The notes under the pieces were generated by a model. That model was not told the origin of the DNA. It did no database searches and worked only from the letters and a program-made list of their open reading frames with translations. Below are positions 1 through 26,532 of a stretch of DNA of 37,591 nt, in pieces. The stretch's first letter is position 1; each line of letters starts with the position of its first letter. A program made the translations under genes and the position numbers. This stretch comes from Streptosporangiaceae bacterium (GTDB lineage: Bacteria > Actinomycetota > Actinomycetes > Streptosporangiales > Streptosporangiaceae), in NCBI GenBank assembly GCA_030039155.1, contig JASHQL010000128.1:1-37591 (forward strand), given 5' to 3'.

Positions 1-1355
1 GCCGCCGGGCGATGACCTGGATTACCGGCGTGGTCGCGTTCCTGGCTGCGGTCCTTGAGTGCTTCACCGGCTACCTGTCCCAGCAGAACTTCGACTCGCA
101 GTGGATCGCCACCAACGGCAAGGACGCGTTCAACGCGGTCGGCGTCGGCGCCTTCTTCAACCTGATGAACTTCGGCCAGATGCTGATGTGGCACATCGTG
201 CTCATCCCGATCATCCTGGTCGCCATCGTCGGCGCGCACGTGCTGCAGGTCCGGATGCGCGGGGTCAGCCACCCGCTGCCGGCCAAGCGGGTCAGCCTGC
301 GTGACCGTGCCGCGCGCAAGGCAGCCGCCGCGGCGGACGCCGGCCCCTGGCGCGGCCCGACCCGGCGCTACGACATCCTCAAGGAAGGCACGATCGCGAC
401 GCTCATCGTCGGCGCCATCGTGCTGCTGATGTCGGCCGTCGTGTCCTCGCCCGACGTGCCGCCGCTGACGATCCAGACCTGGGCGCGGCTGGCACCAGCC
501 GATTTCGTCGGCACCGCTGCCGCCGAGCTGTCCGGCACGCCGTCGGCGGCGGAGCAGAACGTGATCACGCCGGACTACGGCCCGCCCTACAACCACGGCA
601 CCGGGTCGGTGCAGCAGGTCGGCCCGATCAACTGGCAGACGCTCGCCGGAGTCACCCAGCCCATCAACACCGCCAGGGTGTTCGTCCTGCAGCCGCTGGC
701 CAGCCAGGCGGGCAGCGACCCGGTCCTGGCGGCGGCGCTGGCCAGGTACAACTCCGCGTCGCCGGCCCAGCAGTCCAAGTGGGCCACCGCTTACAGCATC
801 GCGTCGGCCAAGGTGAAGTTCGTCGCGGGCGCACCCGTTGTCCCGGTGACCGACGCCGGGCCAGTGCCGGTGATGATGGCCGCCGAGTACCAGATGGCCC
901 GCGGCGGCTCGCTGGACGCTGACCTGCTCGCACAGCGGCAGTTCTACGGCACCAACTTCACCAAGCCGCTGCTGTTCATCGCGGACGGCAACTACTACAA
1001 CAACAAGGCCGCCGCGATGAATCTCACCGGCGACCAGTGGGGCGTGATGAACGAGACCGGCAACTACCCTGGCCAGCCGTGGCTGTGGCTGTACCAGCTG
1101 TGGTATCACGTCAACCCGTTTGGTGACTCGCCGAGCGCGGACATCTGGGCGATCTACCTCACCGGCATCGCCACGGTGCTGCTGCTGCTCGTCCCGTTCA
1201 TCCCCGGCCTGCGGGACATCCCGAGGCTGGTCCCGGTGCACCGGCTGATCTGGCGCAACGGGACACCTGCTGCCGCGGCGACCGGCCAGGCCAGCGACGC
1301 GGCCGCCGTCGGGCCGGCGGATCAAGCCGCAGGCAAGCAGGACGCCAAGTCCTGA
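1..1355 (+). CDS. Cytochrome b/b6-like membrane protein (5' truncated by window edge)
   Basis: Frame is open upstream of the ATG at 12 to the window edge. Contains cyt b-like FTGYL and an HX14H heme-ligand pair (MWHIVLIPIILVAIVGAHVL), several TM segments, and a C-terminal TM region. No PEWY motif seen. Confidence 0.7.
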   Translation, partial: RRAMTWITGVVAFLAAVLECFTGYLSQQNFDSQWIATNGKDAFNAVGVGAFFNLMNFGQMLMWHIVLIPIILVAIVGAHVLQVRMRGVSHPLPAKRVSLRDRAARKAAAAADAGPWRGPTRRYDILKEGTIATLIVGAIVLLMSAVVSSPDVPPLTIQTWARLAPADFVGTAAAELSGTPSAAEQNVITPDYGPPYNHGTGSVQQVGPINWQTLAGVTQPINTARVFVLQPLASQAGSDPVLAAALARYNSASPAQQSKWATAYSIASAKVKFVAGAPVVPVTDAGPVPVMMAAEYQMARGGSLDADLLAQRQFYGTNFTKPLLFIADGNYYNNKAAAMNLTGDQWGVMNETGNYPGQPWLWLYQLWYHVNPFGDSPSADIWAIYLTGIATVLLLLVPFIPGLRDIPRLVPVHRLIWRNGTPAAAATGQASDAAAVGPADQAAGKQDAKS

Positions 1356-3359: not shown

Positions 3360-5801
3360 CTACGGACGCGGGCTGAAGCCGGTAGGGACGTTCGGCCCGG
3401 CTGGTCCGTGGGCAGCCGAGCCCTGGCCTGGTTGCGGCCCGGCGCCCGAGCGGCTGACCGGCTCCCGGCCGGCCGGCTGGCTGAGCCGCGGCTGCGCTGC
3501 GGCAGGCGGCAGGTCAAGGGTGACCGGCTTGCCCGCGGTGAGCGTGAACTCGCGGCCATGATGGCCGACCACCACCGGCGGGCCGGCTTCCAGCGCGTAG
3601 GTCGCGGTTGTCGCGGTGACCTCGGTCCGCAATTGCTGACCGCGGAAGCTGACAGTGAAGGTCAGCCGCGCGATCGGGGCCGGCAGTCGCGGGGCGAAGG
3701 TGAGCTTGCCGTACCGGCTGCGCAGGCCGCCGAAGCCGGCCACCGCGGCGGTCCATGCGCCCGCCAGGGCCGCGAGGTGCAGCCCGTCGGCGACGTTACG
3801 TTCGGTGTCGTCCAGGTCGATGAGCGCCGACTCGGCGAGATAGTCGTATGCCAGGTCAAGCTGGCCGATCTCGGCGGCGATCACCGACTGGGTTGCCGCC
3901 GAGAGCGAAGAGTCGCGGACCGTCAGCCGCTCGTAGTACGCGAAGTTCCTCGCTTTCTGCGCTGCGGTGAAGGCCTCGGGCCGGTGTTGCATGGCGAGGA
4001 CGAGGTCTGCCTGCTTGACGACCTGCTTGCGGTAGAGGTCGAAGTAGGGGAAGTGCCGCAGCAGCGGGTACTGCGCCGCGCTGGTCCTGGCGAAGTCCCA
4101 GACCTCGTGCGCGGTGAAGCCCTCCGCCTGCGGGTGTACACCGAGCTGATCGTCGTACGGGATGGCCATTGCCGCCGCTGCCCGCTGCCAGGCGGCTATC
4201 TCGGCGCTGCTGACGCCGAGCGCGCTGGCCTGCGCCCAGTGCCGCCGCGCTGCGTCGGCCGCGGCCTGCAGATTGTGCTGGGCCATCAGATTCGTGTAGA
4301 CGTTGTTGTCGGCCACCGCGCTGTATTCGTCAGGACCGGTGACGCCGTCGATGCGGAACTCGCCGCCGGTCGCATGGTGGCCGAGCGACTGCCAGAGCCT
4401 GGCGGTCTCCACGAGCAGCTCGAGCCCTGGGTCGGCCTCGAAGCGGGCATCCCCGGTGACATCCACGTACCGGATCACGGCGTCGGCGATGCCGGCGTTG
4501 ACATGGAAGGCGGCTATCCCGGCCGGCCAGTACGCCGAGGACTCGGTGCCGTCGATGGTGCGCCACGGGAACGCGGCGCCGCGCAGGCCGAGCTGCCTGG
4601 CCCGGTCCCGTGCCTGAGCCAGCGTGCTGTGCCGCCAGCGCAGCTCGTCAGCGGCCGCGTCCGGATGGGTGAGCGTGAGCATGGGCAGGACGAACATCTC
4701 GGTGTCCCAGAACGCGTGACCGTCGTATCCGGGGCCGGTGAGACCCTTGGCCGGGATCGGCTGCGTTTCTGCCCTGGCACCGGCCTGGAGCACGTGGAAC
4801 AGGCCGAACCTGATCGCCTGCTGCAGCTCGGGATCGCCGTCGAGCTCGACGTCGGCGCGATGCCAGAACTCGGCCAGGAAGGCCTGCTGCTGCGCAAGCA
4901 GGCCAGGCCAGCCAGTCTGCGCGGCGGTCATCAGCGCGGCCTGCACCTGGTCGCGCAGCGCCGGCAGTGACCTGACCGAGGACCAGCCGTAGCCGACGAA
5001 CTTCACGACGCTGAGCCGCTGCCCCGGCTTGAGGCTCGCGGACACCGTCAGCCTGGCGACGTCTGCCGTGCTCTCGGTTTCTTGCCTGGTCCCTGGCGGA
5101 CCAGCCACGACATGCGCGAATGCGGCTGCCACCCGAAGGTTGCTGAGCTGGGTGCTGTGCACAAGCAGCGCCCTGCCGTCCGCGCCGGCGTGCGACTCGC
5201 CCCGCAGCGCTGACTGCGGCATGTGCCAGCCGCGCGGGTCACCGGCCCCTTCCCCCTGCGGCAGCTCGTTGGCCACCAGCTCGGACTGCACGACGAAGTC
5301 GGCGGGCGCGTCAAGCGGTTCCACCTCGTAGCAGATCGCTGCCACCGCTCGCTGGGTGAGCGATGCCAGCCTGGTCGACCTGACCCGCACGGCCCGGCCG
5401 GCCGGCGATGCCCACTCGGCCACCCGCGCCAGCGTGCCGGCGCGGAAGTCGAGCACCCGCTCGTGCGAGCGCAGGTCACCGTAACGCACGTCGAACGGCT
5501 CGTCGTCCACGAGCAGCCTGATCAGCTTGCCGTTGGTGACGTTGATCACCGACTGGCCGTATTCGGGCAGGCCATAGCCGAACTCGGGGTAACGGATCGG
5601 CCACCGCTCATGGCAGCCGTTCAGGTAGCAGCCAGGCAGGCCGTGCGGCTCGCCCTCGTCGAGATTGCCGCGCCAGCCGATGTGGCCGTTGGACAAGGCG
5701 AACAGCGACTCGGTCTGCCGGAGCGTGTCAAGGTCAAGGCTGGTCTCGCGGAGGCACCAGGCTTCTGCCGGGAAGGCCGGGTGATCGATCATGACCCGCA
5801 C
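3360..5801 (-). CDS. Glycoside hydrolase family 65 protein (disaccharide phosphorylase-like)
   Basis: GYDGHAFWDTEMFVLPML, GVTGPDEYSAVADNNVYTN, FALSNGHIGWRGNLDEGEPHG. True start may be the internal ATG at 5792. Confidence 0.88.
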   Translation of the reverse strand: MRVMIDHPAFPAEAWCLRETSLDLDTLRQTESLFALSNGHIGWRGNLDEGEPHGLPGCYLNGCHERWPIRYPEFGYGLPEYGQSVINVTNGKLIRLLVDDEPFDVRYGDLRSHERVLDFRAGTLARVAEWASPAGRAVRVRSTRLASLTQRAVAAICYEVEPLDAPADFVVQSELVANELPQGEGAGDPRGWHMPQSALRGESHAGADGRALLVHSTQLSNLRVAAAFAHVVAGPPGTRQETESTADVARLTVSASLKPGQRLSVVKFVGYGWSSVRSLPALRDQVQAALMTAAQTGWPGLLAQQQAFLAEFWHRADVELDGDPELQQAIRFGLFHVLQAGARAETQPIPAKGLTGPGYDGHAFWDTEMFVLPMLTLTHPDAAADELRWRHSTLAQARDRARQLGLRGAAFPWRTIDGTESSAYWPAGIAAFHVNAGIADAVIRYVDVTGDARFEADPGLELLVETARLWQSLGHHATGGEFRIDGVTGPDEYSAVADNNVYTNLMAQHNLQAAADAARRHWAQASALGVSSAEIAAWQRAAAAMAIPYDDQLGVHPQAEGFTAHEVWDFARTSAAQYPLLRHFPYFDLYRKQVVKQADLVLAMQHRPEAFTAAQKARNFAYYERLTVRDSSLSAATQSVIAAEIGQLDLAYDYLAESALIDLDDTERNVADGLHLAALAGAWTAAVAGFGGLRSRYGKLTFAPRLPAPIARLTFTVSFRGQQLRTEVTATTATYALEAGPPVVVGHHGREFTLTAGKPVTLDLPPAAAQPRLSQPAGREPVSRSGAGPQPGQGSAAHGPAGPNVPTGFSPRP
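3385..3398 (-). promoter_or_regulatory. DosR-like box upstream of HTH-PNPOx
   Basis: GGGACGTTCGGCCC, about 60 nt upstream of the 3326 start, inside the 3' end of the GH65 gene. Confidence 0.4.
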
Positions 5802-5858: not shown

Positions 5859-8162
5859 TCATTCGACCACGCAGCTCACCGAGAACCGCGCGGCTCCGTC
5901 GTCTGACGGCTCCCTGACCACGCCCTGCACCTCGTTCTCGAAGCCAGGAAACTCGGTGTCCCAGCGCTCGAACAACTGCAGGTAGTCGATGATCGGGCGA
6001 GCCGCCAGGTCGAACCGCTCACCTGGCACGACGACCGGGATGCCGGGCGGGTAGAGCAGGCAGGTGACCGCGCTGACCCGGCCGTCAAGCGCGGCGAGCG
6101 GCACCTGCTCGGTCTTGCCATTCACCAGGCTGGCGAAGGCCGCCGCCGGCGTCTGCGCGGGCTCAGGCAGCTTCTCCGAGATTGCCTCCTGCATGGTCGC
6201 GGTGTTGTACCCGGACAGGAAGCGGTGCATCTGGGCGGCGAGGTCCGCCAGCCCGAGGCCGGCGTACCTGGCGGGGTTCGCGGCGTAGATCTCCGGCAGT
6301 GCCTCGGCGACCGGCATGTTGGCCTCGTATGCCCGGTGGAAGTCGAACAGCTCGGTGAGCAGCGTGCCGGACTTGCCGCGGGTCACCGCGATCGAGAACA
6401 GCACCAGGATTGAGTAGTAGCCGGTCTTCTCCACCACGACGCCGCGGCCGCGGAGGTAGGACGAGACCAGGCTGGCCGGGATGCCCCACCCGGCTGGCTG
6501 CCCGTCCTGCCCGATGCCGGGCGTCACCAGCGTGACCTTGACCGGGTCCAGCATGGCCTCGCCGGGCAGCAGGTCACGGTAGCCGTGCCATGACGCGCCT
6601 GGCACGAGCTGCCAGCTGGCCTGGTCGACCTCGAGCGCGGCGGCCGGCCCGGAACTGTGGCTGGTCCACCCGTCTGCCGTCCCGTCGCCGGTGGTAGGCG
6701 GCTGGAACACCCTGAACCACCAGCCGCCGCTCCCGGTGACCCGGTCAGCTACGGCTGCCATTTCCCTGCGGAAGGCCACGGCCTCGCCGATCGCGTCGTC
6801 GATCAGGGCGCGCCCCGCCGGCCCCTCCATCATCCGGGTCGCGACGTCCAGCGAGGCGACGATGCCGTATTGCGGCGAGGTCGAGGTGTGCAGCATGAAC
6901 GCCTCGTTGAAGCGCGGGCGCGGCAGCGGTGTCCGGCCCTGCCTGATGTGGATCATGGACGCCTGAGACAGCGCGGCCAGCATCTTGTGCGTCGACATGG
7001 TGGTGAGCACGGTCGGCACCGACGGGTCTGCGTGACCGTCAGCTGCCATGCCGTAATGGCGTGCGTACACGGGGTGGAACGCCGCGTACGGGATCCACGC
7101 CTCGTCAAGCAGCACGTGCTCGGCCACCTGGCCAAGGCACCGCACCAGCATCGCGGCGTCATACATGGTCCCGTCGTAGGTGGAGTTGGTCACCACGGCC
7201 AGCTTGGCGCGCTCCGGCGGCTGGCCGCCGACCAGCGGGTTGGCGGCGATCCTCCGCCTGATCGCGGCTGGGTCCAGCTGGCCGGCCCGGATCGGCCCGA
7301 TCAGGCCAAGGTGATTGCGGCCTGACTGCAGCCACACCGGGATGGCGCCGGTCTGGATGACCGAGTTGACGATCGACTTGTGGCAGTTCCGGTCGAGCAG
7401 CACCACGTCGCCGGGCGACACGATCGCGCGGAACACGATCTGATTCGACATCGTGGTGCCGTTGGTCACGAAATAGGTCTCGTCGGCACCGAACACCCGC
7501 GCCGCGTTTGCCTCAGCGGCGCCGACCACCCCTTCGTGCTCGAGGATCGAGCCAAGCTCAGGAACCGAGGACGAGATGTCAGAGCGCAGGAACGTCTCCC
7601 CGGCGAAGTCGAAGAACAGCCGGCCGGCCGGCGACTTCAGGAACGCCAGCCCGCCCATGTGCCCTGGCGTGTGCCACGAATAGCGGTACTCCCTGACGTA
7701 CTTCTCCAGCGCGCCGAAGAACGGCGGGAGCAGGCTGTCCCGGTACTGCTGCATCGCGGTGGTGATGTGGCCGACGATCCACTGCGGCGTGTCCTCGGTG
7801 ATCCAGATCGCGCCAGACAGCGATTCCGCGAGCTCGGGGCCGAGGTCCTGCACCGAGAGGCCCTCGGTGAGCAGGAACGACGGAAGTCCGTTGAACCTAG
7901 CCCTGGCGATGGCGAGTAGCTGGCGCGGCGACCTGATCAGGTCTGGCGGCGCGCCGCTCTCCGCCCAGCCGACCAGCACCGCGCCAAGCTCGGGATGGGT
8001 CCGCAGCATCAGCTCACCGTCGCCGTAGCCGTCGGCCTCCAGCACGGTCAGGCCGTGGTGGTGCAGCTCGCCGATGATCCGCTTGACCGCGGTCCGCACC
8101 GCCAGGCCGGCCTCGCTCCGGTCATGAACGACGAGCACCGGCATCGCGCTCAGGGTCTCCAT
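5859..8162 (-). CDS. Orn/Lys/Arg decarboxylase (AdiA/LdcI-like, receiver-like N-terminal wing + PLP domain)
   Basis: WHTPGHMGGLAFLKSPAGRLFFDF, VTNGTTMSNQIV, LDEAWIPYAAFHP, MSTHKML (PLP lysine). Start re-chosen at METLSAMPVLVV, with rc RBS GGAGGTG. Confidence 0.88.
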   Translation of the reverse strand: METLSAMPVLVVHDRSEAGLAVRTAVKRIIGELHHHGLTVLEADGYGDGELMLRTHPELGAVLVGWAESGAPPDLIRSPRQLLAIARARFNGLPSFLLTEGLSVQDLGPELAESLSGAIWITEDTPQWIVGHITTAMQQYRDSLLPPFFGALEKYVREYRYSWHTPGHMGGLAFLKSPAGRLFFDFAGETFLRSDISSSVPELGSILEHEGVVGAAEANAARVFGADETYFVTNGTTMSNQIVFRAIVSPGDVVLLDRNCHKSIVNSVIQTGAIPVWLQSGRNHLGLIGPIRAGQLDPAAIRRRIAANPLVGGQPPERAKLAVVTNSTYDGTMYDAAMLVRCLGQVAEHVLLDEAWIPYAAFHPVYARHYGMAADGHADPSVPTVLTTMSTHKMLAALSQASMIHIRQGRTPLPRPRFNEAFMLHTSTSPQYGIVASLDVATRMMEGPAGRALIDDAIGEAVAFRREMAAVADRVTGSGGWWFRVFQPPTTGDGTADGWTSHSSGPAAALEVDQASWQLVPGASWHGYRDLLPGEAMLDPVKVTLVTPGIGQDGQPAGWGIPASLVSSYLRGRGVVVEKTGYYSILVLFSIAVTRGKSGTLLTELFDFHRAYEANMPVAEALPEIYAANPARYAGLGLADLAAQMHRFLSGYNTATMQEAISEKLPEPAQTPAAAFASLVNGKTEQVPLAALDGRVSAVTCLLYPPGIPVVVPGERFDLAARPIIDYLQLFERWDTEFPGFENEVQGVVREPSDDGAARFSVSCVVE

Positions 8163-8226
8163 GGCACACCTCCGCGTCGGGTTCACCGCTTCCGAGGCTC
8201 GTGCCGTCTGGCCCGCTGGCAGTAGA

Positions 8227-8238
8227 GCCGAACGTCCC
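8227..8238 (-). promoter_or_regulatory. DosR-like box upstream of decarboxylase 1
   Basis: GCCGAACGTCCC (rc GGGACGTTCGGC), about 65 nt upstream of the 8162 start. Confidence 0.5.
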
Positions 8239-8296
8239 TGGCACGCAGGGCCGGCCGGCCACGGCGGCACGCGCAGGGACCATCAGCAATCAGCAC

Positions 8297-8308
8297 GGGA
8301 CCTTCGGC
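8297..8308 (+). promoter_or_regulatory. DosR-like box upstream of permease
   Basis: GGGACCTTCGGC, about 78 nt upstream of the 8386 start. Confidence 0.55.
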
Positions 8309-8385
8309 ACTGCTTGACGGCATCTGGCCAGCCGGATGGTGAGCCTTGGGACGGGCGTGCCGTCCCGGGCTGAAGGGAGCCGGCA

Positions 8386-9900
8386 ATGGCAACGACTTCA
8401 TCAAGGGGGGTGGCCGCCGGCGAACCGGGCAAGGCGCTGAGCGGTCACCCTGCGGCCGCCAGGAAGGTGCGGCCCAAGAGAGTCCTCGGCATGACCAGCC
8501 TGGCGATGATCGACGTCGCCGCGGTGATCAGCCTGCGGAACCTGCCGACCGTCGCGGAGTACGGCTGGGGATCGATCTTCATCTTCGGTCTCGCGCTGGT
8601 CGGTTTCATGATCCCGATTTCGTTCGCCGCGGCCGAGCTGGCCAGCGGCTGGGCCGAGACCGGCGGCGTGTACGTCTGGGTCAGGGAGGCGTTCGGCAAC
8701 AAGTCGGGCGCGGTCGCGATCTGGGCCGACTGGGCGGAGAACCTGGTCTGGTACCCGACCGTGCTGTCGTTCATCGCGGCCTCGCTTGCCTACCTGCTGG
8801 TGCCGGCCTGGGCCAACAACAGGGCCTGGCTGTTCATCGTGATGATGGTGGTCTTCTGGGGCACCACGCTGGCGAACTTCTTCGGCGTGCGCGCATCGGC
8901 CAGGATCAGCACCTGGGGCACGGTGCTCGGCTCGGTGGTACCTGGCATCGTGCTGATCGGCCTTGGCATCGGCTGGCTGGCCAGCGGGCACACGCTGGCC
9001 GCGCCCTACCATGGCGCGCACTCGCTGATGCCCGCGCTCAGCCTGTCCAACCTGGTGTTCTTCTCCGGCGTGCTGCTTGCCTTCGCCGGCATGGAGATGG
9101 CCGGGTTCCACGCCCGCGAGGCCAAGAACCCGAAGAAGGACTTCCCCAAGGCCACGCTGCTTGCCTGCCTGCTGCTCGTCGGGCTGTACGTGCTCGGCAC
9201 CCTGGCGATCGCGGTGGTGGTGCCGCAGCACAAGATCGAGCTGAACTCCGGGCTGCTGCAGGCATTCCAGGTGTTCTTCAACAGGTTCGGGGTGGGCTGG
9301 CTGACCAGGCCGATGTCACTGCTGATCTTCGCAGGCGGCATCGCGCTGCTGTCCACCTGGATGTACGGCCCGGCCCGTGGCTTCATGCGGGCCTCCTTCG
9401 AGGGCGACTTCCCGAAGGTGTTCCAGGGCCATAACAGCAAGCTGGCACCGACCTCGGTGCTCTGGATCCAGGCAGGCATCGGCACGCTGTTCGCGCTGCT
9501 GTTCCTGTTCGAGCCGACGATCAGCGCGTCCTACTGGATCCTGTCGGCACTCACCACGCAGCTACTTGTGATCATGTACGTGCTGATGTTCGCGGCGGTG
9601 ATCCGGCTCCGCTACACCCAGCCGGACCGGCCCCGGCCGTACAAGATCCCAGGCGGCAAGATCGGCGTGTGGATCATGGCCGGCCTCGGCGTGGCCGGCT
9701 GCGTGTTCGCGTTCTACGTGGGCTTCGTCCCGCCATCGCAGATCACCACGGGCAACCACACGCTGTACATCACGCTGATGATCCTCTTCACCGCGGTGCT
9801 GGCGCTGCCGCCGATCATCATCTCCTGGTTCCGCAGGGACTCCTGGAAGGCAGACGCCCAGACCATGGCGGCCGTGCAGGCGTCCGAGGACGAGGAGTAG
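8386..9900 (+). CDS. APC-superfamily amino acid permease/antiporter
   Basis: MTSLAMIDVAAVISLRNLPTVAEYGWGSIF..., about 12 TM segments, AGMEMAGFHAREAKNPKKDFPKA; RBS AGGGAG upstream. Confidence 0.87.
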   Translation: MATTSSRGVAAGEPGKALSGHPAAARKVRPKRVLGMTSLAMIDVAAVISLRNLPTVAEYGWGSIFIFGLALVGFMIPISFAAAELASGWAETGGVYVWVREAFGNKSGAVAIWADWAENLVWYPTVLSFIAASLAYLLVPAWANNRAWLFIVMMVVFWGTTLANFFGVRASARISTWGTVLGSVVPGIVLIGLGIGWLASGHTLAAPYHGAHSLMPALSLSNLVFFSGVLLAFAGMEMAGFHAREAKNPKKDFPKATLLACLLLVGLYVLGTLAIAVVVPQHKIELNSGLLQAFQVFFNRFGVGWLTRPMSLLIFAGGIALLSTWMYGPARGFMRASFEGDFPKVFQGHNSKLAPTSVLWIQAGIGTLFALLFLFEPTISASYWILSALTTQLLVIMYVLMFAAVIRLRYTQPDRPRPYKIPGGKIGVWIMAGLGVAGCVFAFYVGFVPPSQITTGNHTLYITLMILFTAVLALPPIIISWFRRDSWKADAQTMAAVQASEDEE

Positions 9901-9909
9901 CGCAGCCCA

Positions 9910-9945
9910 GCTGGCCCCCAGACGCTCCGGCGCGAGGGGGCCAGC
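9910..9945 (+). terminator. Hairpin after permease gene
   Basis: GCTGGCCCCC / GGGGGCCAGC, perfect 10-bp arms with 16-nt loop, 10 nt after the stop. Confidence 0.6.
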
Positions 9946-9993
9946 GGTGGTTTGAGGCATCAGCCCTGGAACGCACGATGAAGGAGCACCACG

Positions 9994-12414
9994 ATGGAGC
10001 ACTACGACAAGTACCCGGTCCTGCTTGCCGAGCATGAGCTCGGCACCGGATCGGCAATCGACACCGCTACCATGGCGCTGGCATCGGCACTGACCGACCG
10101 CGGCCTGCGGGTGATCACCGCGCGGACGGCAGCGGACGCCAGCTTCGCCATCGCCGCGCACGCAGGCCTCGGTACCGTGCTGCTCGACTGGGACCTGTTC
10201 GACTCCGAGCGCGAGTTGCACGCCCTGCTCGACCAGATCCGCAAGGTGAGCGAGGAACTGCCGGTGTTGCTGCTGGCCGAGCGCGCGGATGTGGAGGGCA
10301 TCCCGCTGTCGGTTGCCGAGCGCACCGACGGGTTCTTCTGGCTGCACGAGGACACTCCGGAGTTCGTGGCAGGCCGGATCGAGCGGCTCGTCCAGGGCTA
10401 CGCCGACCGGCTGCTCTCGCCGTTCTTCGGCGCGCTGAAGCGCTACGTCGACGACTACAACTGGACCTGGTGCTGCCCGGGCCACAACGGCGGCATGTTC
10501 TACCGGAAGACCCCGCTCGGCCGGGCGTTCTTCGACTACGTTGGCGAGCCGTTCCTGCGCGGCGACCTGTGCAACGCGGCGCCGGAACTGGGCTCGATCC
10601 TGCAGCACCAGGGCCCGGTCGCCGACGCCGAGCGTAAGGCCGCTGAGGTGTTCGGCGCTGAGCGCACGTACTTCGTGCTGAACGGCACGTCCACCTCGAA
10701 CAAGATGGTGACGATGTCCCTGCTCACGCCGGGCGACCTGGTGCTGTTCGACCGCAACTGCCACAAGTCGAACCACCACGGCGCGCTGATGATGGCCGGG
10801 GCGATCCCCGTGTACCTGAACCCGACCAGGGACGCCAACGGCATCATCGGCCCGGTTGACCACCGGTTCCTTGACGAGGACTACATCCGCGAGCAGATCA
10901 GGCGCAACCCGCTGGTCACCGACCAGGACGCCTGGCAGCGGCCGCGCCCGTTCCGGCTGGCGATCCTCACCAACACCACCTACGACGGCGTCTGCTACAA
11001 CGAGCGCGAGGTGCTGGACAAGATCGGCCGGCTGTGCGACTACATCCTGTTCGACGAGGCCTGGATGGCCTATGCCAAGTTCCACCCGCTGTTCGTCGAC
11101 CGGTACGGCATGGCGCTGACCGGCCTCGGGCCCGACGACCCCGGCATCTATACCACCCAGTCGACGCACAAGTGCCTGGCCGGCATGTCGCAGGCCTCGC
11201 AGATCCACGTCAGGGACAGCCACCTGCGCGGCCAGCGACGCGAGGTCGGCCATGACCGGTTCAACGAGGTGTTCATGATGCACACCTCGACCTCGCCGCA
11301 GTACAACATGATCGCCTCGCTCGACGTCGGCGCGCAGATCATGCGCGGCCGTCCGGGCTTCGCGCTGGTGGACGAGGCGGTCAGGGAGTCCATCGCGCTG
11401 CGCAAGCAGGTCGAGCGCTACCACGATGAGCTGGCCGCCCGGGCGGCGGACGGCGACCACGCCGGGTGGTTCTTCGACATCTTCGGCCCGCACCAGGTCA
11501 CGGTCACGCCGGAGCAGCTCACCGCTGCTGCCACCGAGCCGTACCTGGACCTGCAGGTGCGCGAGGCGCTGGCGAAGGCCACCGCGGATGGCGGCTTCGC
11601 CGCGACGGCGTGGCGGGAGGTGCCGGACGACATCCTGGCCAGCGTGCCGGAGTGCTGGATGTTCCACGACGGCGACGACTGGCATGACCTCACCGGGCTC
11701 GCGCCCGGCTACGTCATGCTCGACCCCACCAAGTGCTCGCTCACCACGCCGGGCATCGAGGGCGGCCGCAGGTTCGCCGAATCCGGCATCCCGGCAGCCG
11801 TGCCTGCCGCGTTCCTGCGCGCCCGCGGCATCGTGAACGAGAAGACCAGCTTCTACACGATCTTGTTGCTGGTCACTCCGGCCATCGAGCGCGGCAAGTC
11901 CGGCACGCTGCTGTCTGAGCTGCTGGACTTCAAGCGCGGCTACGACCACGACGCCATGGTCGGTGACGTGCTGCCCGCGCTCGCCGAGGCGTACCCGGAC
12001 CGGTACGGGAAAGCCGGGCTGCGCGAACTGTGCGACGAGATGCACGCGGTGTTGCGCGACCGCAATGCCGACCAGCTGCAGAAGGCGGTCTACAACGCCG
12101 AGCACGAGCCCGAGCCGGTGCTGTCCCCGGTGGACGGCCACACGGCCATGCTTCGCGGCAACTGCGAGCTGGTCCCGCTCGGCGAGCTGGCCGGCCGGAT
12201 CGCGGCAAGCCTCATCGTGGTCTACCCGCCAGGCATCGCGATCATGGTTCCGGGCGAGCGGTTCGCCGCGGACTCGGCAGCGGTGGAGTACCTGCGGCTG
12301 TTCGAGGAATGCGACAACCGGTTCCCCGGCTTCGAATCGGAGATGCAGGGCATCTTCCCGCGCCGCGACGAAGACGGCCGGCTGCGCTACTACACCTACG
12401 TGGTCAAGGAGTAG
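9994..12414 (+). CDS. Orn/Lys/Arg decarboxylase, second paralog
   Basis: WCCPGHNGGMFYRKTPLGRAFFDYVGEPF, LNGTSTSNKMV, FDEAWMAYAKFHPLF, QSTHKCLAGMSQASQIH; RBS GGAGC before ATG. Confidence 0.88.
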   Translation: MEHYDKYPVLLAEHELGTGSAIDTATMALASALTDRGLRVITARTAADASFAIAAHAGLGTVLLDWDLFDSERELHALLDQIRKVSEELPVLLLAERADVEGIPLSVAERTDGFFWLHEDTPEFVAGRIERLVQGYADRLLSPFFGALKRYVDDYNWTWCCPGHNGGMFYRKTPLGRAFFDYVGEPFLRGDLCNAAPELGSILQHQGPVADAERKAAEVFGAERTYFVLNGTSTSNKMVTMSLLTPGDLVLFDRNCHKSNHHGALMMAGAIPVYLNPTRDANGIIGPVDHRFLDEDYIREQIRRNPLVTDQDAWQRPRPFRLAILTNTTYDGVCYNEREVLDKIGRLCDYILFDEAWMAYAKFHPLFVDRYGMALTGLGPDDPGIYTTQSTHKCLAGMSQASQIHVRDSHLRGQRREVGHDRFNEVFMMHTSTSPQYNMIASLDVGAQIMRGRPGFALVDEAVRESIALRKQVERYHDELAARAADGDHAGWFFDIFGPHQVTVTPEQLTAAATEPYLDLQVREALAKATADGGFAATAWREVPDDILASVPECWMFHDGDDWHDLTGLAPGYVMLDPTKCSLTTPGIEGGRRFAESGIPAAVPAAFLRARGIVNEKTSFYTILLLVTPAIERGKSGTLLSELLDFKRGYDHDAMVGDVLPALAEAYPDRYGKAGLRELCDEMHAVLRDRNADQLQKAVYNAEHEPEPVLSPVDGHTAMLRGNCELVPLGELAGRIAASLIVVYPPGIAIMVPGERFAADSAAVEYLRLFEECDNRFPGFESEMQGIFPRRDEDGRLRYYTYVVKE

Positions 12415-12422
12415 GCCGGACC

Positions 12423-12463
12423 GCCGAACGTCCTGCCCATCAGCCTCGGGCAGGACGTTCGGC
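12423..12463 (+). terminator. Perfect 16-bp hairpin downstream of decarboxylase 2
   Basis: GCCGAACGTCCTGCCC - 9 nt - GGGCAGGACGTTCGGC; no T-tract. Confidence 0.6.
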
Positions 12464-12583: not shown

Positions 12584-13042
12584 ATGACCGAGTCAGCATC
12601 GATCATCGGCGCGCAGCAATTTCTGCGCACGATGCCAGCGGCCTACGTCGAGCGGCTGGCGGCCGTCGGCACGCACATAAGCCTGCCTGCCGGGCACCGG
12701 TTGTTCGAGGAAGGCGGGCCCGCGGACAAGTTCTGGCTGATCGACGCCGGGCAGGTCGCACTCGACGTGCTGATCCCAGGCGACGGCCGGGTGACCATCG
12801 AACGGCTCGGACGCGGCGACGTCGTCGGCCTGTCCTGGTTGCAGCAGCCGTACCAGTGGCGGTATGGCGCCATCACCACCCAGCCGATGCAGGCGTTTGA
12901 GTTTGACGCCAGGCAGGTGCGTGCGGCGTGTGAGCAGGACCCGGCCTTCGGCTACGCGATCGTCTTGCGGTTCATGGCGGTGGCGGCGCGCCGGCTGCAG
13001 GCGACCAGGGCACGCCTGACGGCGGCCTGCGCGGCCGCCTGA
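12584..13042 (+). CDS. Stand-alone cyclic-nucleotide-binding (Crp-like) domain protein, no HTH
   Basis: LPAGHRLFEEGGPADKFWLIDAGQVALDVLIPGDGRVTIERLGRGDVVGLSWL; only 152 aa, no C-terminal DNA-binding domain. Confidence 0.8.
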   Translation: MTESASIIGAQQFLRTMPAAYVERLAAVGTHISLPAGHRLFEEGGPADKFWLIDAGQVALDVLIPGDGRVTIERLGRGDVVGLSWLQQPYQWRYGAITTQPMQAFEFDARQVRAACEQDPAFGYAIVLRFMAVAARRLQATRARLTAACAAA

Positions 13043-14326: not shown

Positions 14327-17056
14327 CTAGCGGAGCCGGCGCAGGTATGGGTCGTAGGGAACTGCGGGCGCGATCCTGATCCGCGCGTCCACGGCGAACA
14401 CCGCGTCCGGCCTGGCCAGCACCGGGTTCAGGTCCAGCTCGGCGATCTCGGCGAAGTCGTCCGCCAGCCTCGACACCCGCAGCAGCAGGTCCGCCAGCGC
14501 CGCGGTGTCGACCGGAGGTGATCCGCGGTGCCCGAGCAGCAGCGGGGAAGCATGCACGCCGTGGATGAGGTCCTCGGCATCAGCCCTGGTCAGCGGGGTG
14601 AGCCTGGCCGCGTGGTCGCCAAGGACCTCGGTGGCAACCCCGCCGAGACCGAACACCACCAGCGGCCCGAACACCGGCTCCTGCACGACCCCGACCAGCA
14701 CCTCGGTGCCGGTCAGCATCGGCTGGACCAGCACCTGGCGAAGGCGTGCGCCGAACGACGCGGCGAGCTCACGGTAGGCCCCGGCGACGTCCTCTTGCCG
14801 CAGGTCGAGCCGGACTGCGCCAGCGTCGGTCTTGTGCACGATGCCCTCGGCATCGGCCTTCAGCACGATGCGGCCGTCGTATTCGGCCGCGGCGGCGATC
14901 GCTGCCGCCTCGCCCCGGACAGCCTTCGTGGGCACGAGCGGGATCTGGTAACAGCCAAGCAGCTGGGCCGCGTCTGGTCCGGGCAGCCAGCCGCCGGCCG
15001 GCTGCGCGATCAGGAACGCCGAGATCAGCTGGCGGGCACCTGCCGCGTCGATGCCCGGCAGGTCAGGCAGTGGTGCCCGCTGGCGCGACCGCCAGGCGCC
15101 GTACCGCGCCGCGCGGGCAAGCGCGCCCGCGGCAGTCTCCGGGTAGGCATAGGCAGGGACGCTGCGGACTGCCGCTGCTTCACCACCGGGGCCGGCCGCC
15201 TGGCCGGCACCTTCACCCGCATCGGCCGGCCCCAGCGGCGGCGCCGGCACGGGCAGCAATCGCACCGCATCGGCCTGGTCAAGCACCGCAAGCGCAACCG
15301 GCTTGGTCAGGCCGGCCGCGAGCGTCGCGGCAGTCAGGTCGGCGATCGCCGTCGGCACCACGATCACCAGGACCGCATCGACCGCGTCGTCAGCCGCGAC
15401 CTCGCGCAGGCATCCGGCGAACGTGTCAGGCCCGACGGCTGCGCTGGTGTCCACCGGATTGGCGACGGCCGCGCCCGGCGGCAGCAGCCTGGTCAGCTTG
15501 CGCCGCGTGCCGCTGCCCAGCGCGGTGACCTGCAGCCCGCTATCCGCGCATGCGTCCGCGGCCAGCACGCCGGCGCCGCCTGCGTTGGACACGATCGCGA
15601 CCCGGTTGCCGGCCGGGCAAGGCTGGCAGGACAGCAGCGCGGCTGCCTCGATGCACTCCCCCAGGCTGTGCGTCGCGATGATGCCGGCCTGGCCGAACAG
15701 GGCCTCCTGGGTGACCACGGGCGTGGCGACCGCGGCGGTGTGCGAAGCCGCCGCCCGCTGGCCGGCCGCGGACCGGCCGCTGATCACCGTGAGCACGGGC
15801 AGCTGCTTGCCCAGCCTGCGGGCGGTGCGCGCGAATGCCCGCGGGTTGCCGAATGACTCGACGTACAGCACGGCGAGCCTGGACGACCCGTCCTGCTCCC
15901 ACCAGGTCAGCAGGTCGTTGCTGGACACGTCGAACTTGTCGCCGACCGAGGCAAAGGAAGAGACGCCGATGCCCAGCCTCGACATGTGCTCGAGCAGCGC
16001 GATGCCCACCCCTCCTGACTGCACCACAAGACCCGCCGTTCCGGCGGCCGGCGGATGCGCGCCGAAGGTGGCATTGAGGCGCAGTGCGGGCACCGCGACG
16101 CCGAAGCAGTTCGGGCCGACCAGGCGCATGCCGTACCTGCGGCAGATCGCCAGCAGGTCGGCCCCCGCACTGCCCAGGCCGGCGGTGATCACGACAAGCG
16201 CACGGACCCCGGACCGGCCGCAGTCGGCCGCCACCGCCGGAACCGCCGCCGCGGGCACCGCCACGACCGCCAGGTCGACGCCGGCGGGCAGGTCGGCGAC
16301 CGAATGACGGCAGTGCAGGCCCTCCATCGAGGTGGCATGCGGGTTCACCGGGTAGACGTTGCCCTGATAGCCGCCGGCCACGATGTTGTGCAGGATCTCC
16401 CGGCCCACGGTGCCGCGCCGGTGGCCGGCCCCGATCACCGCGATCGAGGCGGGCTGCAGCAGTGGCCGCAGGCTTGCCACATCGGCCCGGCTCGCCCGAG
16501 CCGCAACCTTGTCCAGGTAGGCATCGAGCCGGTCGTCGTCGGCTCCTGGCAGCGGCATGTCAAGCCGCACCACGCCATCGGCGTAGTGCCGCTCCACCGG
16601 CAGCCCGGCATCGGCGAACACCCGCTGCATGGCGTAGTTGTCAGGCAGCGTCTCGGCGGCGAATGCGTGCAGGCCGCGCTGCCGCGCCCGCGAGACCAGG
16701 TGCTCGAGGAGCAGGGTCGCGACGCCCTGGCCGTGCATGTCATCGCGAACCGCGAACGCGATCTCGGCGATGCCGGGCCGCTGGGTCGACTCGTAACTGG
16801 CGACACCGACGAGCCTGCCGTCCAGCCAGGCCAGCAGTGCCGCGTGGTCATCATCAGCCGCCCGGCACACCCTGGCCGCCTCCGCCAGCGCGACGTTCTG
16901 GCCGAGGCCGAAGAACCGGAAGTACCGGTTGTCCGCCGACATCTGCTCGTGCATGGCGCGTACGGCGTCGCCGTCCGCTGGAGTGGCCGGCCTGATCCGC
17001 ACCGTCCGGCCGTCAGCCAGCAATGCGAACGAGCCCGGATTCGCTTCGATGGTCAC
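14327..17056 (-). CDS. GNAT acetyltransferase fused to ADP-forming acyl-CoA synthetase-like protein (Pat-like)
   Basis: N-terminal GNAT (VRIRPATPADGDAVRAMHEQMSADNRYFRFFG...IAFAVRDDMHGQGVATLLLEHLV), then CoA-binding (ASIAVIGAGHRRGTVGREILHNI), SHTAA region and C-terminal ATP-grasp (YDGRIVLKADAEGIVHKTDAGAVRLDL). Confidence 0.85.
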   Translation of the reverse strand: MTIEANPGSFALLADGRTVRIRPATPADGDAVRAMHEQMSADNRYFRFFGLGQNVALAEAARVCRAADDDHAALLAWLDGRLVGVASYESTQRPGIAEIAFAVRDDMHGQGVATLLLEHLVSRARQRGLHAFAAETLPDNYAMQRVFADAGLPVERHYADGVVRLDMPLPGADDDRLDAYLDKVAARASRADVASLRPLLQPASIAVIGAGHRRGTVGREILHNIVAGGYQGNVYPVNPHATSMEGLHCRHSVADLPAGVDLAVVAVPAAAVPAVAADCGRSGVRALVVITAGLGSAGADLLAICRRYGMRLVGPNCFGVAVPALRLNATFGAHPPAAGTAGLVVQSGGVGIALLEHMSRLGIGVSSFASVGDKFDVSSNDLLTWWEQDGSSRLAVLYVESFGNPRAFARTARRLGKQLPVLTVISGRSAAGQRAAASHTAAVATPVVTQEALFGQAGIIATHSLGECIEAAALLSCQPCPAGNRVAIVSNAGGAGVLAADACADSGLQVTALGSGTRRKLTRLLPPGAAVANPVDTSAAVGPDTFAGCLREVAADDAVDAVLVIVVPTAIADLTAATLAAGLTKPVALAVLDQADAVRLLPVPAPPLGPADAGEGAGQAAGPGGEAAAVRSVPAYAYPETAAGALARAARYGAWRSRQRAPLPDLPGIDAAGARQLISAFLIAQPAGGWLPGPDAAQLLGCYQIPLVPTKAVRGEAAAIAAAAEYDGRIVLKADAEGIVHKTDAGAVRLDLRQEDVAGAYRELAASFGARLRQVLVQPMLTGTEVLVGVVQEPVFGPLVVFGLGGVATEVLGDHAARLTPLTRADAEDLIHGVHASPLLLGHRGSPPVDTAALADLLLRVSRLADDFAEIAELDLNPVLARPDAVFAVDARIRIAPAVPYDPYLRRLR

Positions 17057-17158: not shown

Positions 17159-17170
17159 GGGACCTTCGCC
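17159..17170 (-). promoter_or_regulatory. DosR-like box upstream of Pat-like gene
   Basis: GGGACCTTCGCC, about 103 nt upstream of the 17056 start. Confidence 0.5.
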
Positions 17171-20008: not shown

Positions 20009-20325
20009 CGGTGCTGCCCGACGACCGTCCCGGCCGCCGGGAAGATCACGCTCTGGTCCGCACCGGGGTCACGGACACCGTGGGACTTGGCATTTGGACG
20101 GGAACGAAGAGCTTGCGGCAGATCCAGCCGGTGCCGCTGGTCTGGCCCGATGGCAACGCCGCGCGGATGGCTCATGCAGACCGCCGCCCGGTGCCGCAGG
20201 CGTGACCACCGTCAGCAGGTGCCGGGCCGGTAGTCTCTGCCTGCTGACTCGACCGCCATGTCGGCTGAGCGGCATCCGCTCCGCCGAATTACGGACCCGG
20301 GCGGCTGTTGAGGAGGTTGACCCTG

Positions 20326-21534
20326 ATGCCGTGCTCGCTGCACGTGGCCTGGGATGAGGGGCTGCTGGCTTATGATTTCGGGCCCGGCCATCCGCTGGCG
20401 CCGGTCCGGGTGCGGCTGACGGTGGAGCTGGCCAGGGCGCTGGGCGTGCTCGGCGAGCCAACCGTGCTGGTGGCGGCGCCCGCGGCGGCGACCGACGCCG
20501 AGCTTGAGCTGGTCCACGACCCCGGCTACCTCGACACGGTGCGGAAGGCCGGCGCCGCGGCCGCCGCAGGCGGCCTGGCCGGCCTGGACCCGGCAGTGTT
20601 GCTGCGGCACGGGCTGGGCACCGCGGACGTGCCGGTGTTCGCCGGGATGCACGAGGCAGCGGCCGGGGTGGCGGGGGCGACCCTGGCGGCGGCGCAGGCG
20701 GTGTGGTCAGGGGCGGCTGAGCACGGGGCGAGCATCGCGGGCGGGCTGCATCATGCGATGCGCGGGCAGGCGAGCGGGTTCTGCGTGTATAACGACCCGG
20801 CGGTCGCGATCGGCTGGCTGCTGGGGCAGGGCGCGCAGCGGATCGCGTATGTGGACATCGACGTGCACCACGGCGACGGGGTGCAGGCCGCGTTCTGGGA
20901 CGACCCGAGGGTGCTGACGATCAGCGTGCACGAGCACCCGGCCACCCTGTTCCCCGGCACCGGACTGCCATCCGAGACCGGCGGCCGCGCCGCCGCCGGC
21001 ACCGCGGTGAACGTGGCGCTGCCGGCCGGCACCCGTGACGCGGGCTGGCTGCGCGCCATCGACGCGGTCGCGCCGCCGCTGCTGCGCGCGTTCGCACCGC
21101 AGATCCTGGTCAGCCAGCACGGCTGCGACACCCACTGGAGCGACCCGCTGGCCGACCTGCAGGTCAGCATCGACGCGCAGCGCGCCGCGCACGCCCTGAT
21201 CCACCAGCTCGCCCACCAGGCCTGCGGCGGCCGGTGGCTGCTCACCGGCGGCGGCGGCTACCAGCTGGTCCAGGTCGTGCCGCGGACCTGGACCCACCTG
21301 CTGGCCGAGGCCGCCGGCGCGCCCATCGACCCGGCCGCCGCCACCCCGCAGCCGTGGCGCGAGCTCGCCGAACACGCCGCCGGTGAGCCGGCCCCGGAGC
21401 TGATGACCGAAGGCGCCGCCGCCAGCTACTCCCGGTTCGACGCCGGCTACGACCCCGCCGACCCCGTCGACCAGGCCATCCTGGCCACCAGGAACGCCAT
21501 CTTCCCCGCACACGGCCTGCTCCCCCTCCCCTAG
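20326..21534 (+). CDS. Histone-deacetylase-family (AcuC-like) deacetylase
   Basis: GGLHHAMRGQASGFCVYNDPAVAIGWLL, YVDIDVHHGDGVQAAFWDDPRVLTISVHE, GGGGYQLVQVVPRTW; AGGAGG RBS at 20311. Confidence 0.9.
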   Translation: MPCSLHVAWDEGLLAYDFGPGHPLAPVRVRLTVELARALGVLGEPTVLVAAPAAATDAELELVHDPGYLDTVRKAGAAAAAGGLAGLDPAVLLRHGLGTADVPVFAGMHEAAAGVAGATLAAAQAVWSGAAEHGASIAGGLHHAMRGQASGFCVYNDPAVAIGWLLGQGAQRIAYVDIDVHHGDGVQAAFWDDPRVLTISVHEHPATLFPGTGLPSETGGRAAAGTAVNVALPAGTRDAGWLRAIDAVAPPLLRAFAPQILVSQHGCDTHWSDPLADLQVSIDAQRAAHALIHQLAHQACGGRWLLTGGGGYQLVQVVPRTWTHLLAEAAGAPIDPAAATPQPWRELAEHAAGEPAPELMTEGAAASYSRFDAGYDPADPVDQAILATRNAIFPAHGLLPLP

Positions 21535-23942: not shown

Positions 23943-23977
23943 GGGACTTCGGCCGGCCAAGTCAGGACCAAGGTCCC
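23943..23977 (+). promoter_or_regulatory. Two DosR-like boxes upstream of the DosR-like regulator
   Basis: GGGACTTCGGCC (23943-23954) and AGGACCAAGGTCCC (23964-23977), about 85-115 nt upstream of the ATG at 24060. Confidence 0.7.
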
Positions 23978-24059: not shown

Positions 24060-24728
24060 ATGCCGGACCAGGGCACGGACCACGGGAAGATCAAGGTCTT
24101 CCTGCTCGACGACCACGAGATAGTCCGGCGCGGCGTCCGCGAGCTGCTCGAGGCGGAGCCCGACATCGAGGTCGTCGGCGAGGCAGGCACCGCTGATTCG
24201 GCGCTGGCCAGGATTCCCGCGCTGCGGCCGGATGTCGCCGTCCTTGACGTCCGGCTGCCGGACGGTGACGGCGTCACCGTCTGCCGGGAGATCAGGTCCA
24301 AGATGCCGGAAATCGCCTGCCTCATGCTGACCTCGTTCGGCGACGACGAGGCCCTCTTCGACGCCATCATGGCGGGCGCCGCCGGGTATGTGCTCAAGCA
24401 GATCAGGGGCACCGACCTGGTCGGCGCGGTGCGCACGGTCGCGGCCGGCGAGTCGATGCTCGATCCCGAGGCAGCCAGCAAGGTCATGGCCAGGATGCGC
24501 GACCAGGCCGCCAAGGCTGACCCGCTGGCCGGACTGACCGGCCAGGAGCGCAAGATCCTCGAGCTAATCGGCGAGGGCCTGACCAACCGGCAGATCGGCG
24601 AGCGGATGTACCTGGCCGAGAAGACGGTGAAGAACTACGTGTCGGCGCTGTTCGCCAAGCTGGGCATGGAGCGCAGGACCCAGGCGGCCGCGTACGCCGC
24701 GCACGTCTTCGACCCCGGCCAGCGCTAG
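24060..24728 (+). CDS. devR: NarL/DevR-family response regulator, DosR-like
   Basis: [24 protein letters not shown]...[20 protein letters not shown]...[38 protein letters not shown]; recognition helix matches recalled M. tuberculosis DosR (EKTVKNYVS). Confidence 0.9.
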
Positions 24729-26434
24729 TCGCGGCCGGCCAGCGGCACTCGCCAGACAAGCTCGGTGCCGCCTGCTTCGGCCCGCTCGACGGTCAGCGAG
24801 CCACCGAGCTTGCTCGCCCGCTGCTCGAGATTGCTCAGCCCGCTGCGCCGCGTCGTGTTCTTGATCCCAGAGCCGTTGTCGCGCACCGTCAGCACCAGGT
24901 CAGTCGCCGCGCGCACCCTGACGTCGACCTGGCTGGCGCCAGCGTGCCTGGCCGCATTGGACAGCGCCTCCCTGAGCGCGCCGAGCATCTGCTCGGCGGC
25001 ATCCTCGGGCACGCCGCCGTCGAGGTTCCCGTCGAGCTGCAGCGACGGGGCGAACCCGAGCAGGCCAGTCATCTCATCGGCGATGCCGAGCACCCGCGCT
25101 CGCAGGCTCTCCGCACCGCCGTCCGGACGTGACTGCAGGCCGAAGATCGCGGTGCGGATCTCCCTGATCGTCTCGTCGAGCGCGTCGACGGACCTGGTGA
25201 CCCGGTCGGCGGCCTCCGGGAGCGTGATCAGCGGAATCGAGCCCTGCAGCGACATGCCGGTCGCGTACAGCCGCTGAATCACCAGATCGTGCAGGTCGCG
25301 GGCGATCCGGTCGCGATCCTCGAACACCGCGAGGCGCTCTGCCTGGGCGCGGTGCTCGGCAAGCTCGAGGGCGATCGCCGCCTGGGCAGCGAACGCGTCC
25401 AGCATGCCGACGGCGGCCGGGGCGAGCGGCGCAGAGCCGGGCCGCCGGCCCGCGGTCAGCACGCCGCGGACGTTGCCAGGGCCGCCAAGCGGCACCACGA
25501 CCGCCGGTCCCAGGTTCATATGCTGCCTGGCGACCGCGTCTGCGCGCTGGTCGGAACCGAAGTCGGCCAGGTCCAGCCGGGTCCCGCTGCTGAGCACGCG
25601 TCCGGAAACCGAATTCTCGGCCGGCAGCACCAGGCCAAGCGCGTCCGCGGCGCCGTCGCCGGCCGCGTGCTCGATCTGCAACCGTGACCGGTCCGCGGTT
25701 GGCAGTGCCAGCACGACCAGGTCAGCGCCGGTGAGCTCGAGCGACTTGCTGGTGATCAGCGCGAGCGCCTGCCCGAGCGGAACGCCGGACAACAGGCTGC
25801 TGAAGACCTCGGCGCTGGCGGTCAGCCAGCGCTGCTGGCGGCGCGCCTCGCTGTACAGCCGCGCGTTCTCGATCGCGACACCGGCCGCGCCGGCCAGCGC
25901 CACCAGGACTGCCTCATCCTCCTCGTCGAAGTGGCTGCCATCGCGCTTCTCGGTGAGGTACAGGTTCCCGTACACCTCGTCGCGGATCCGGATCGGCGCG
26001 CCGAGGAACGAGCGCATCGGCGGGTGGCCCTCGGGGAAGCCGGACGAGAGCTCGTGCCGGGCCAGATCAGCGATCCGCACCGGGCGCGGGTCGGTGATCA
26101 GCGCCCCGAGCAGGCCGCGGCCCTCCGGCCAGTGGTGGATGGCGCGGATCTGGTCCTCGGTCAAGCCGACCGGGATGAACTCAGCCAGGCCGCCGTCTTC
26201 GCCGATCACGCCCATGGCCCCATACTTGGCATCGACCAGCGTCACCGCGGCCTCGACGATGCTGCGCAGCACGACCTCGATGTCGAGCGTGGTGCCGACC
26301 GAGACGATCGCCTCGAACAGCGCGTTGACGCGGTCCCTGGTCGCCACCACAGCCTGCAGCCTGACCTGGAGCTCGTCGAGCAGCTCATCGAGGCGGAGGC
26401 TGGGCAGCAACGCCCGTTGCCTGCGGTCACTCAT
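24725..26434 (-). CDS. devS: GAF-GAF-HisKA_3-HATPase sensor kinase, DosS/DosT-like
   Basis: [31 protein letters not shown]...[32 protein letters not shown]...[26 protein letters not shown]...[14 protein letters not shown]...DNGSGI. Start at MSDRRQ chosen; ORF is longer. Confidence 0.88.
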
Positions 26435-26532
26435 GTATCGGACTCCAGCGCGCGGTGCCGGACGGTTGTGATCATATTCCGCCGCCACTTGGCCGGCCAC
26501 CAGGGCCCGGCCGGTGCCATGGTCCCCAGGCT

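Follow-up and report, generated by a model that had tools for sequence, protein, structure and literature searches.

A divergent decarboxylase-permease module with DosR-type boxes in an actinobacterial dormancy island

Results

Gene arrangement at the decarboxylase-permease locus

The window, i.e., the whole 37,591 nt stretch analyzed here, derives from an uncultured actinobacterium and corresponds to contig C531 (37.6 kb) of the draft, MAG-like assembly G000 (4.8 Mb, 599 contigs, 88% complete). Open reading frame and profile searches of the window yielded odc1, an APC permease gene and odc2, all intact, in the arrangement GH65 <- odc1 <-> permease -> odc2 -> cNMP-binding protein. This confirmed the original prediction of two divergent Orn/Lys/Arg decarboxylases flanking an APC permease; both enzymes are full-length and wing-bearing. 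Within the whole draft genome, they are the only genes of the Orn/Lys/Arg family above the family cut-off.

The odc1 gene (5859–8162, minus strand) encodes a wing-bearing amino-acid decarboxylase of the Lys/Arg branch, as assigned by the Pfam domains OKR_DC_1_N/1/1_C, phmmer, a phylogenetic tree and the EKT motif. Its reading frame is open to 8270, and the ATG at 8162 was chosen as start based on a GGAGG Shine-Dalgarno sequence and homology. Directly 3′ of odc1, on the same strand and separated by 66 bp, lies a gene of the GH65 glycoside phosphorylase/hydrolase type (3360–5792, minus strand; Pfam), possibly in one operon with odc1. The permease gene (8386–9900, plus strand) encodes an APC permease of the GadC branch and probable amino acid/amine exchanger, judged from the NCBIfam GadC models and the structure 4dji. 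It is followed by odc2 (9994–12414, plus strand), encoding a wing-bearing amino-acid decarboxylase of the ornithine branch (NF010092, 676 bits; tree).

A GC-rich hairpin visible in the sequence between the permease gene and odc2 (9909–9946, plus strand; fold z −2.2) is a possible attenuator or processing site. Downstream of odc2 follows a perfect 16 bp inverted repeat with box-like arms (AGGACGTTCGGC; 12423–12463; fold z −6.6), likely a terminator stem. These arms, upstream of the cNMP gene, score 14.0 bits with the weight matrix described below, and the repeat may serve both as terminator stem and as box-like site for that gene. Scans for sigma-70 promoters and U-tract terminators gave matches at or below chance.

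The module lies within a DosR-type island

The original prediction placed the module in a dormancy island, and the gene content of the contig bears this out. Besides DosR and DosS orthologues, profile searches of the window identified at least six universal stress proteins (USPs), two nitroreductase-family proteins, HSP20, CBS and CBS-BON proteins, two zinc alcohol dehydrogenases, WS/DGAT, a GNAT-fused acyl-CoA synthetase and an HDAC-fold protein. The DosR orthologue (24060–24728, plus strand) has M. tuberculosis DevR as its best solved match (3c3w, 280 bits), which spans 205 residues and is nearly identical in the recognition-helix region (TVKNYVS...); dosR also has its own box at 23966–23977. 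Next to it lies a gene for a DosS/DosT-like GAF-GAF histidine kinase (24725–26490, minus strand), the GAF-A domain of which best matches 2vzw and the DevS GAF-A structures. This kinase is the putative cognate oxygen/redox sensor of the island DosR. The two genes are convergent with a 4 bp overlap, whereas in S. coelicolor osdR and osdK share one operon.

We conclude that the region is a genuine DosR-type island. It extends leftwards, because contig C472 of the same assembly overlaps window positions 1–200 (199 of 200 bases, one mismatch) and holds a further perfect box, GGGACCTTGGTCCC, between cytochrome-b-like and PsiE-like genes. Two more DosR-type boxes were noticed on contig C58 of this genome (stretch positions 1157–1282).

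The cNMP-binding protein (12584–13042) stands alone near the GNAT-fused ADP-type acyl-CoA synthetase (14327–17056). These neighbors recall a split form of the mycobacterial cNMP-GNAT protein Pat and recur in a related genome (G951, see below). An HDAC/AcuC-fold protein (20308–21534) shares the island with the GNAT-fused synthetase, and acetylation control within the island is possible.

Both divergent promoters carry DosR-type boxes

As originally predicted, DosR-like boxes lie in the divergent region 8163–8385, where they exceed chance and match the published OsdR core. The box of odc1, CAGGGACGTTCGGCTCTA (8223–8240, minus strand), is located 61–78 bp before the odc1 ATG and scores 18.1 bits; its 12-mer core GGGACGTTCGGC occupies 8227–8238 (minus strand). 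The box of the permease-odc2 unit, ACGGGACCTTCGGCACTG (8295–8312, plus strand), is located 74–91 bp before the permease ATG and scores 13.4 bits, with the core GGGACCTTCGGC at 8297–8308 (plus strand). A weak third box-like site, GGGACCATCAGC (8274–8291, plus strand), forms a direct repeat 21 bp before the permease box and is considered only tentative because it reaches just 5.7 bits.

The strict M. tuberculosis consensus TTSGGGACTWWAGTCCCSAA gave best window matches of only 14/20, mixed with matches in coding sequence, and we therefore adopted the local form GGGACNTTNGNC. This pattern has 8 matches in the window compared to 0.20 after dinucleotide shuffling (none of 100 shuffled versions reached 8) and only 25 in the whole 4.8 Mb draft genome, hence 0.195 expected in the contig (Poisson P about 4e-11 for 8), statistics that are somewhat optimistic because the pattern was chosen with the originally predicted boxes in view. 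A control with the reversed pattern had 0 matches in the window. All eight boxes are located 65–110 bp upstream of island genes, namely those for HTH-PNPOx, odc1, the permease, acs (box at 17159, 109 bp before the gene), CBS-BON, dosR, CBS/adh and usp5.

For scoring, a weight matrix was trained on the six window sites outside the module, leaving out both module sites. Random 223 bp stretches of related genomes reached 18.1 bits in 0 and 13.4 bits in 0.2% of draws, corresponding to a P per 223 bp of <0.001 for the odc1 box and 0.002 for the permease box. Of 0.6 million background positions, four scored at least 13.4 bits and not one came to 18. Independent checks on the boxes are the published OsdR sites and the genome G640 described below. 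The S. coelicolor OsdR table gives AGGGACCTTCGGCCCC and CGGGACCTTCGGCCCT, with the same core as the window boxes, and the identical core GGGACCTTCGGC occurs upstream of narG2 (PMC5069765).

Two decarboxylases of old and separate branches

Both enzymes possess an N-terminal wing, a PLP-binding major and a C-terminal domain (Pfam PF03709, PF01276, PF03711). The original prediction called them paralogs. They do belong to the same superfamily and share 43% identity, but instead of a generic pair they appear to be members of two old branches, a Lys type and an Orn type. The closest solved relative of odc1 by phmmer is P. aeruginosa LdcA (6q6i, 46% identity, 695 bits); its closest named relatives are from methanogens (48%). 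In a tree of 131 sequences, odc1 and its orthologue from G640 grouped within the Lys/Arg branch but in a clade of their own (support 100) that included none of AdiA, LdcA and CadA, and odc2 formed one clade (100) with its G640 and G938 relatives, sister to the SpeC/SpeF group (100); the exact placements are tentative because of long branches and a quick method.

The glutamate of the EKT motif, which presumably contacts the side-chain amine of the substrate, is present in CadA, LdcC, LdcA, SpeC, SpeF and both window enzymes; AdiA and three enzymes closely related to it have another residue there. Among 73 alignment columns separating lysine from ornithine decarboxylases, odc1 is LDC-type in 47 and ODC-type in 11, but it falls into its own clade beside LdcA. 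odc2 is mixed in such columns (24 LDC-like versus 19 ODC-like) and ODC-like in columns separating ornithine from arginine decarboxylases (113 versus 51). Its best model of all is the ornithine decarboxylase NF010092, with 676 bits below the curated cut-off of 794. Judged from these residues, odc1 is probably lysine-decarboxylase-like and odc2 ornithine-decarboxylase-like, and arginine appears disfavored as a substrate. AdiA identity was ruled out by scores of 666 and 594 bits for the two enzymes against the NF011603 equivalog (>1167 bits), and the AdiA motif PTRT is replaced by [VN]EKT in both.

A permease of the GadC branch

The permease scores 460, 450 and 241 bits with the NCBIfam GadC models (equivalog cut-offs 640–673), and its best solved relative is GadC (4dji). 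Its C-terminus is short, without the long tail of E. coli GadC, and profile searches for a gadB partner at the locus found none; with the sub-cut-off scores, this excluded the GadC equivalog name. The AdiC/CadB/PotE antiporter family was likewise rejected (TIGR00905, 96 bits compared to >409). The permease thus belongs to the Glu/GABA (GadC) branch of the APC superfamily and not to the classic AdiC/CadB/PotE antiporters. Because the scores fall short of the curated values, we give none of the names AdiA, GadC or AdiC/CadB/PotE to these proteins. The original prediction, which likened the module to classic acid-resistance or polyamine systems, is refined in this respect.

Transporters of the GadC branch are known for Glu/GABA or Tyr/tyramine exchange, and Lys/Orn exchange by this permease is therefore hypothetical. 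Genes of the odc1 type adjoin GadC-type permeases in Alphaproteobacteria, Verrucomicrobiota, Micrarchaeota, Actinomycetota, Endozoicomonas and others; this pairing is therefore widespread and not unique to the DosR island.

The module is conserved in a second actinobacterial order

We surveyed permease homologs in about 1,770 genome look-ups (overlapping searches). Beyond the order of the window, a permease 74% identical was found in a single genome, G640. G640 belongs to another actinobacterial order and has the same divergent arrangement, with odc1 56% and odc2 72% identical to the window enzymes. Its permease-odc2 gap is only 5 bp, compared to the hairpin-bearing gap in the window. The complete module was present in 1 of 13 genomes of this order. 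The same contig encodes two DosR homologs (67 and 71%), several USPs, CydAB, CBS, PNPOx and ADH; thus, what is new here is that G640 carries the same module in its own DosR/USP/CydAB island. Just upstream of its cytochrome bd oxidase genes (L147, 3182–5713), a strong DosR-type box, GGGACCTTCGTCCC, was observed.

The 12-mer box occurs 36 times in G640, 42 times in G938 and 92 times in G951. At such high counts it is not specific alone, and we therefore used spacing and the matrix in these genomes. The two best matrix sites in the odc1-permease gap of G640 score 11.8 and 11.6 bits, weaker than those of the window, each score being reached in about 0.5% of random 174 bp stretches. They lie 58–75 and 77–94 bp before the start codons, compared to 61–78 and 74–91 in the window. 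Both being within three bases of the window placement has a chance of about 3e-8 at the background rate, with the threshold set afterwards. One of the sites is a near-perfect palindrome, GGGACC-TGT-GGTCCT. The comparison indicates that the module is conserved in a second actinobacterial order, with box-like sites of matching geometry. Boxes lacking from orthologous promoters had been named beforehand as evidence against the prediction; the G640 promoters carry box-like sites.

DosR coupling of the module, as originally proposed, is strengthened by the box statistics, the OsdR core and the G640 geometry, and on these sequence data DosR regulation appears well supported.

Sister islands carry arginine deiminase genes

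The proposed survey of related genomes thus returned the full module with boxes in G640, but the module lineage is rare. Window genome aside, close odc2 relatives were present in 1 of 349 genomes of the window's order (G938, 81%), and a search of G938 for odc1 or a close permease found neither. The island around its odc2 also encodes HSP20, arginine deiminase (ADI), ornithine carbamoyltransferase (OTC), CBS-BON and PNPOx; at the second deiminase locus of this genome, the Acs gene is separated from an antiporter gene by a stretch with a box. In G951, an antiporter-ADI-OTC operon with GGGACGTAGGTCCT upstream adjoins genes for USP, cNMP, PNPOx and GNAT-Acs, neighbors of the kinds that occur in the window. 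G938 and G951 represent two other genera of the window's family. The ADI/OTC/antiporter genes with DosR-type boxes are at L209 217–3982 (G951:C196) and, in G938, at L208 4817–6827 and L179 62–3043. In the stretches examined, the arginine deiminase genes of G000 had no box at the matrix threshold. Taken together, these loci suggest that DosR islands are repeatedly linked with the catabolism of basic amino acids.

A first search had also returned an odc1-type gene in 20 other genomes of the window's order. Because these genes are solo, only 42–50% identical and had neither an exact box within 1.5 kb nor window-type island genes in the flanks examined, they do not represent an orthologous context. 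The methanogen relatives of odc1 had no window-like permease in the stretches examined, which argues against a simple transfer of the module.

Discussion

The module may bear on how non-growing actinobacteria keep their membrane energized without oxygen. We suggest that it is a DosR-controlled decarboxylation/antiport module, proton-consuming and membrane-charging during hypoxia, and put the probability of this reading at roughly 0.6. When oxygen falls, the GAF-containing DosS-like kinase would sense it and activate DosR, which would bind the two divergent boxes and induce both the permease-odc2 unit and odc1, the latter possibly together with the GH65 gene. The permease would take up a basic amino acid and release an amine. 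In the cytosol, odc1 would act on lysine-type and odc2 on ornithine-type substrates, each decarboxylation using one proton. With a cation-for-dication stoichiometry, exchange and proton consumption together could hold membrane potential and internal pH once respiration has ceased. For other substrates, it is established that amino-acid decarboxylation together with electrogenic antiport generates a proton motive force. Such an energetic role would fit respiration-less hypoxic cells best, with pH balance accompanying it, and the module would be an alternative to the arginine-deiminase route of the sister islands. The arrangement shared by two distantly related actinobacteria suggests that amino-acid fermentation may keep cells energized without oxygen. 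Against the module reading speak the weaker boxes of G640, the draft state of the window genome, the rarity of the lineage, the known substrates of GadC-branch transporters and the mixed specificity columns of odc2; moreover, one permease serves two enzymes, and the hairpin splits permease and odc2 in the window.

The module could instead be chiefly a proton sink in acid stress, like enterobacterial CadAB, AdiAC or SpeF-PotE, with its island position secondary. The wing-domain enzymes are of the same superfamily, the decarboxylase-antiporter layout is shared, and the roles overlap since hypoxic fermentation acidifies cells; ADI, too, makes ammonia and can raise pH. Nevertheless, we regard this as rather unlikely: the permease falls outside the AdiC/CadB/PotE type and has no long C-terminal tail like that of GadC, both promoters bear DosR boxes, and the sister islands hold the ADI energy pathway instead of further acid genes. 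Because close island relatives carry ADI in the same neighborhood, acid resistance is weaker than proton-consuming hypoxic fermentation as an explanation. The literature treats LdcA, LdcC and SpeC as enzymes that make polyamines and not as acid-stress enzymes (PMC8983666), and LdcA is the nearest solved relative of odc1. This would suit a supply of putrescine and cadaverine that protects DNA or membranes during dormancy, with the permease as polyamine exporter or uptake system. However, two enzymes exceed biosynthetic need, and an adjacent co-directional exchanger (5 bp away in G640) suits flux or export over retention; polyamine synthesis alone leaves it unexplained and is improbable in our view.

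The sporadic distribution, with no close relatives among the 349 genomes of the order apart from G938, and the distant methanogen affinity of odc1 might also reflect a horizontally acquired module that landed beside the dosR island, outside its control. High-scoring boxes in both divergent promoters, the same module with matching box spacing in the dosR island of another order, and odc2 alone in such an island in a third genome make such a passenger very improbable.

If DosR directly controls proton-consuming decarboxylation in some lineages, its regulon exceeds stress proteins and lipid storage and can also carry interchangeable fermentation cassettes. A broader version, to which we give somewhat less than even odds, is that some actinobacteria outside Mycobacterium and Streptomyces keep whole amino-acid fermentation cassettes (Lys/Orn decarboxylation-antiport or ADI) in the DosR regulon at one island neighborhood, dormancy being powered by a decarboxylation-driven membrane potential via a GadC-branch exchanger of new Lys/Orn-for-amine specificity. 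As it involves defined boxes and three genes and has a second natural example, the DosR hypothesis can be tested directly.

Comparison with known systems

Compared with P. aeruginosa LdcA (6q6i), odc1 shares the full-length colinear fold and the EKT motif; it differs in its separate clade with G640 and its pairing with a GadC-type permease. Like SpeC/SpeF, to which it is a sister branch, odc2 fits the ornithine decarboxylase model best, but it falls into its own clade with ~41–43% identity and mixed specificity columns, and the window permease is not PotE. The match to M. tuberculosis Rv2531c (9n0n), a probable amino-acid decarboxylase of the common superfamily, is distant (E about 1e-44) and covers the core only; the Rv2531c substrate is unknown (PMC12910592). 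The permease shares its APC branch with the glutamate/GABA antiporter GadC (4dji; 460 bits) but stays below the equivalog cut-off, has a shorter C-terminus, and its partner enzymes are predicted basic-amino-acid decarboxylases instead of GadB.

A route that leads from arginine via ADI and ODC to putrescine has been described for lactic acid bacteria, and acid defense is often the main effect of such routes (PMC5838238). G938 likewise unites ADI, OTC and odc2 in one island, whereas the route of lactic acid bacteria has no known tie to a dormancy regulator that senses oxygen.

Searching the literature for decarboxylases among DosR-regulated genes gave no relevant hits. In agreement with the original prediction, which did not associate such modules with the mycobacterial DosR regulon, neither the published OsdR table nor the main texts examined on that regulon mention an amino-acid decarboxylase/antiporter module. 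With the M. tuberculosis DosR/DevR and S. coelicolor OsdR regulons (PMC5069765), the window shares an orthologous regulator and kinase, the USP/nitroreductase/ADH/PNPOx island and boxes of the GGGACC...GGYCCY type, the likeness to Mycobacterium being drawn by analogy; it differs in the convergent orientation of dosR and dosS.
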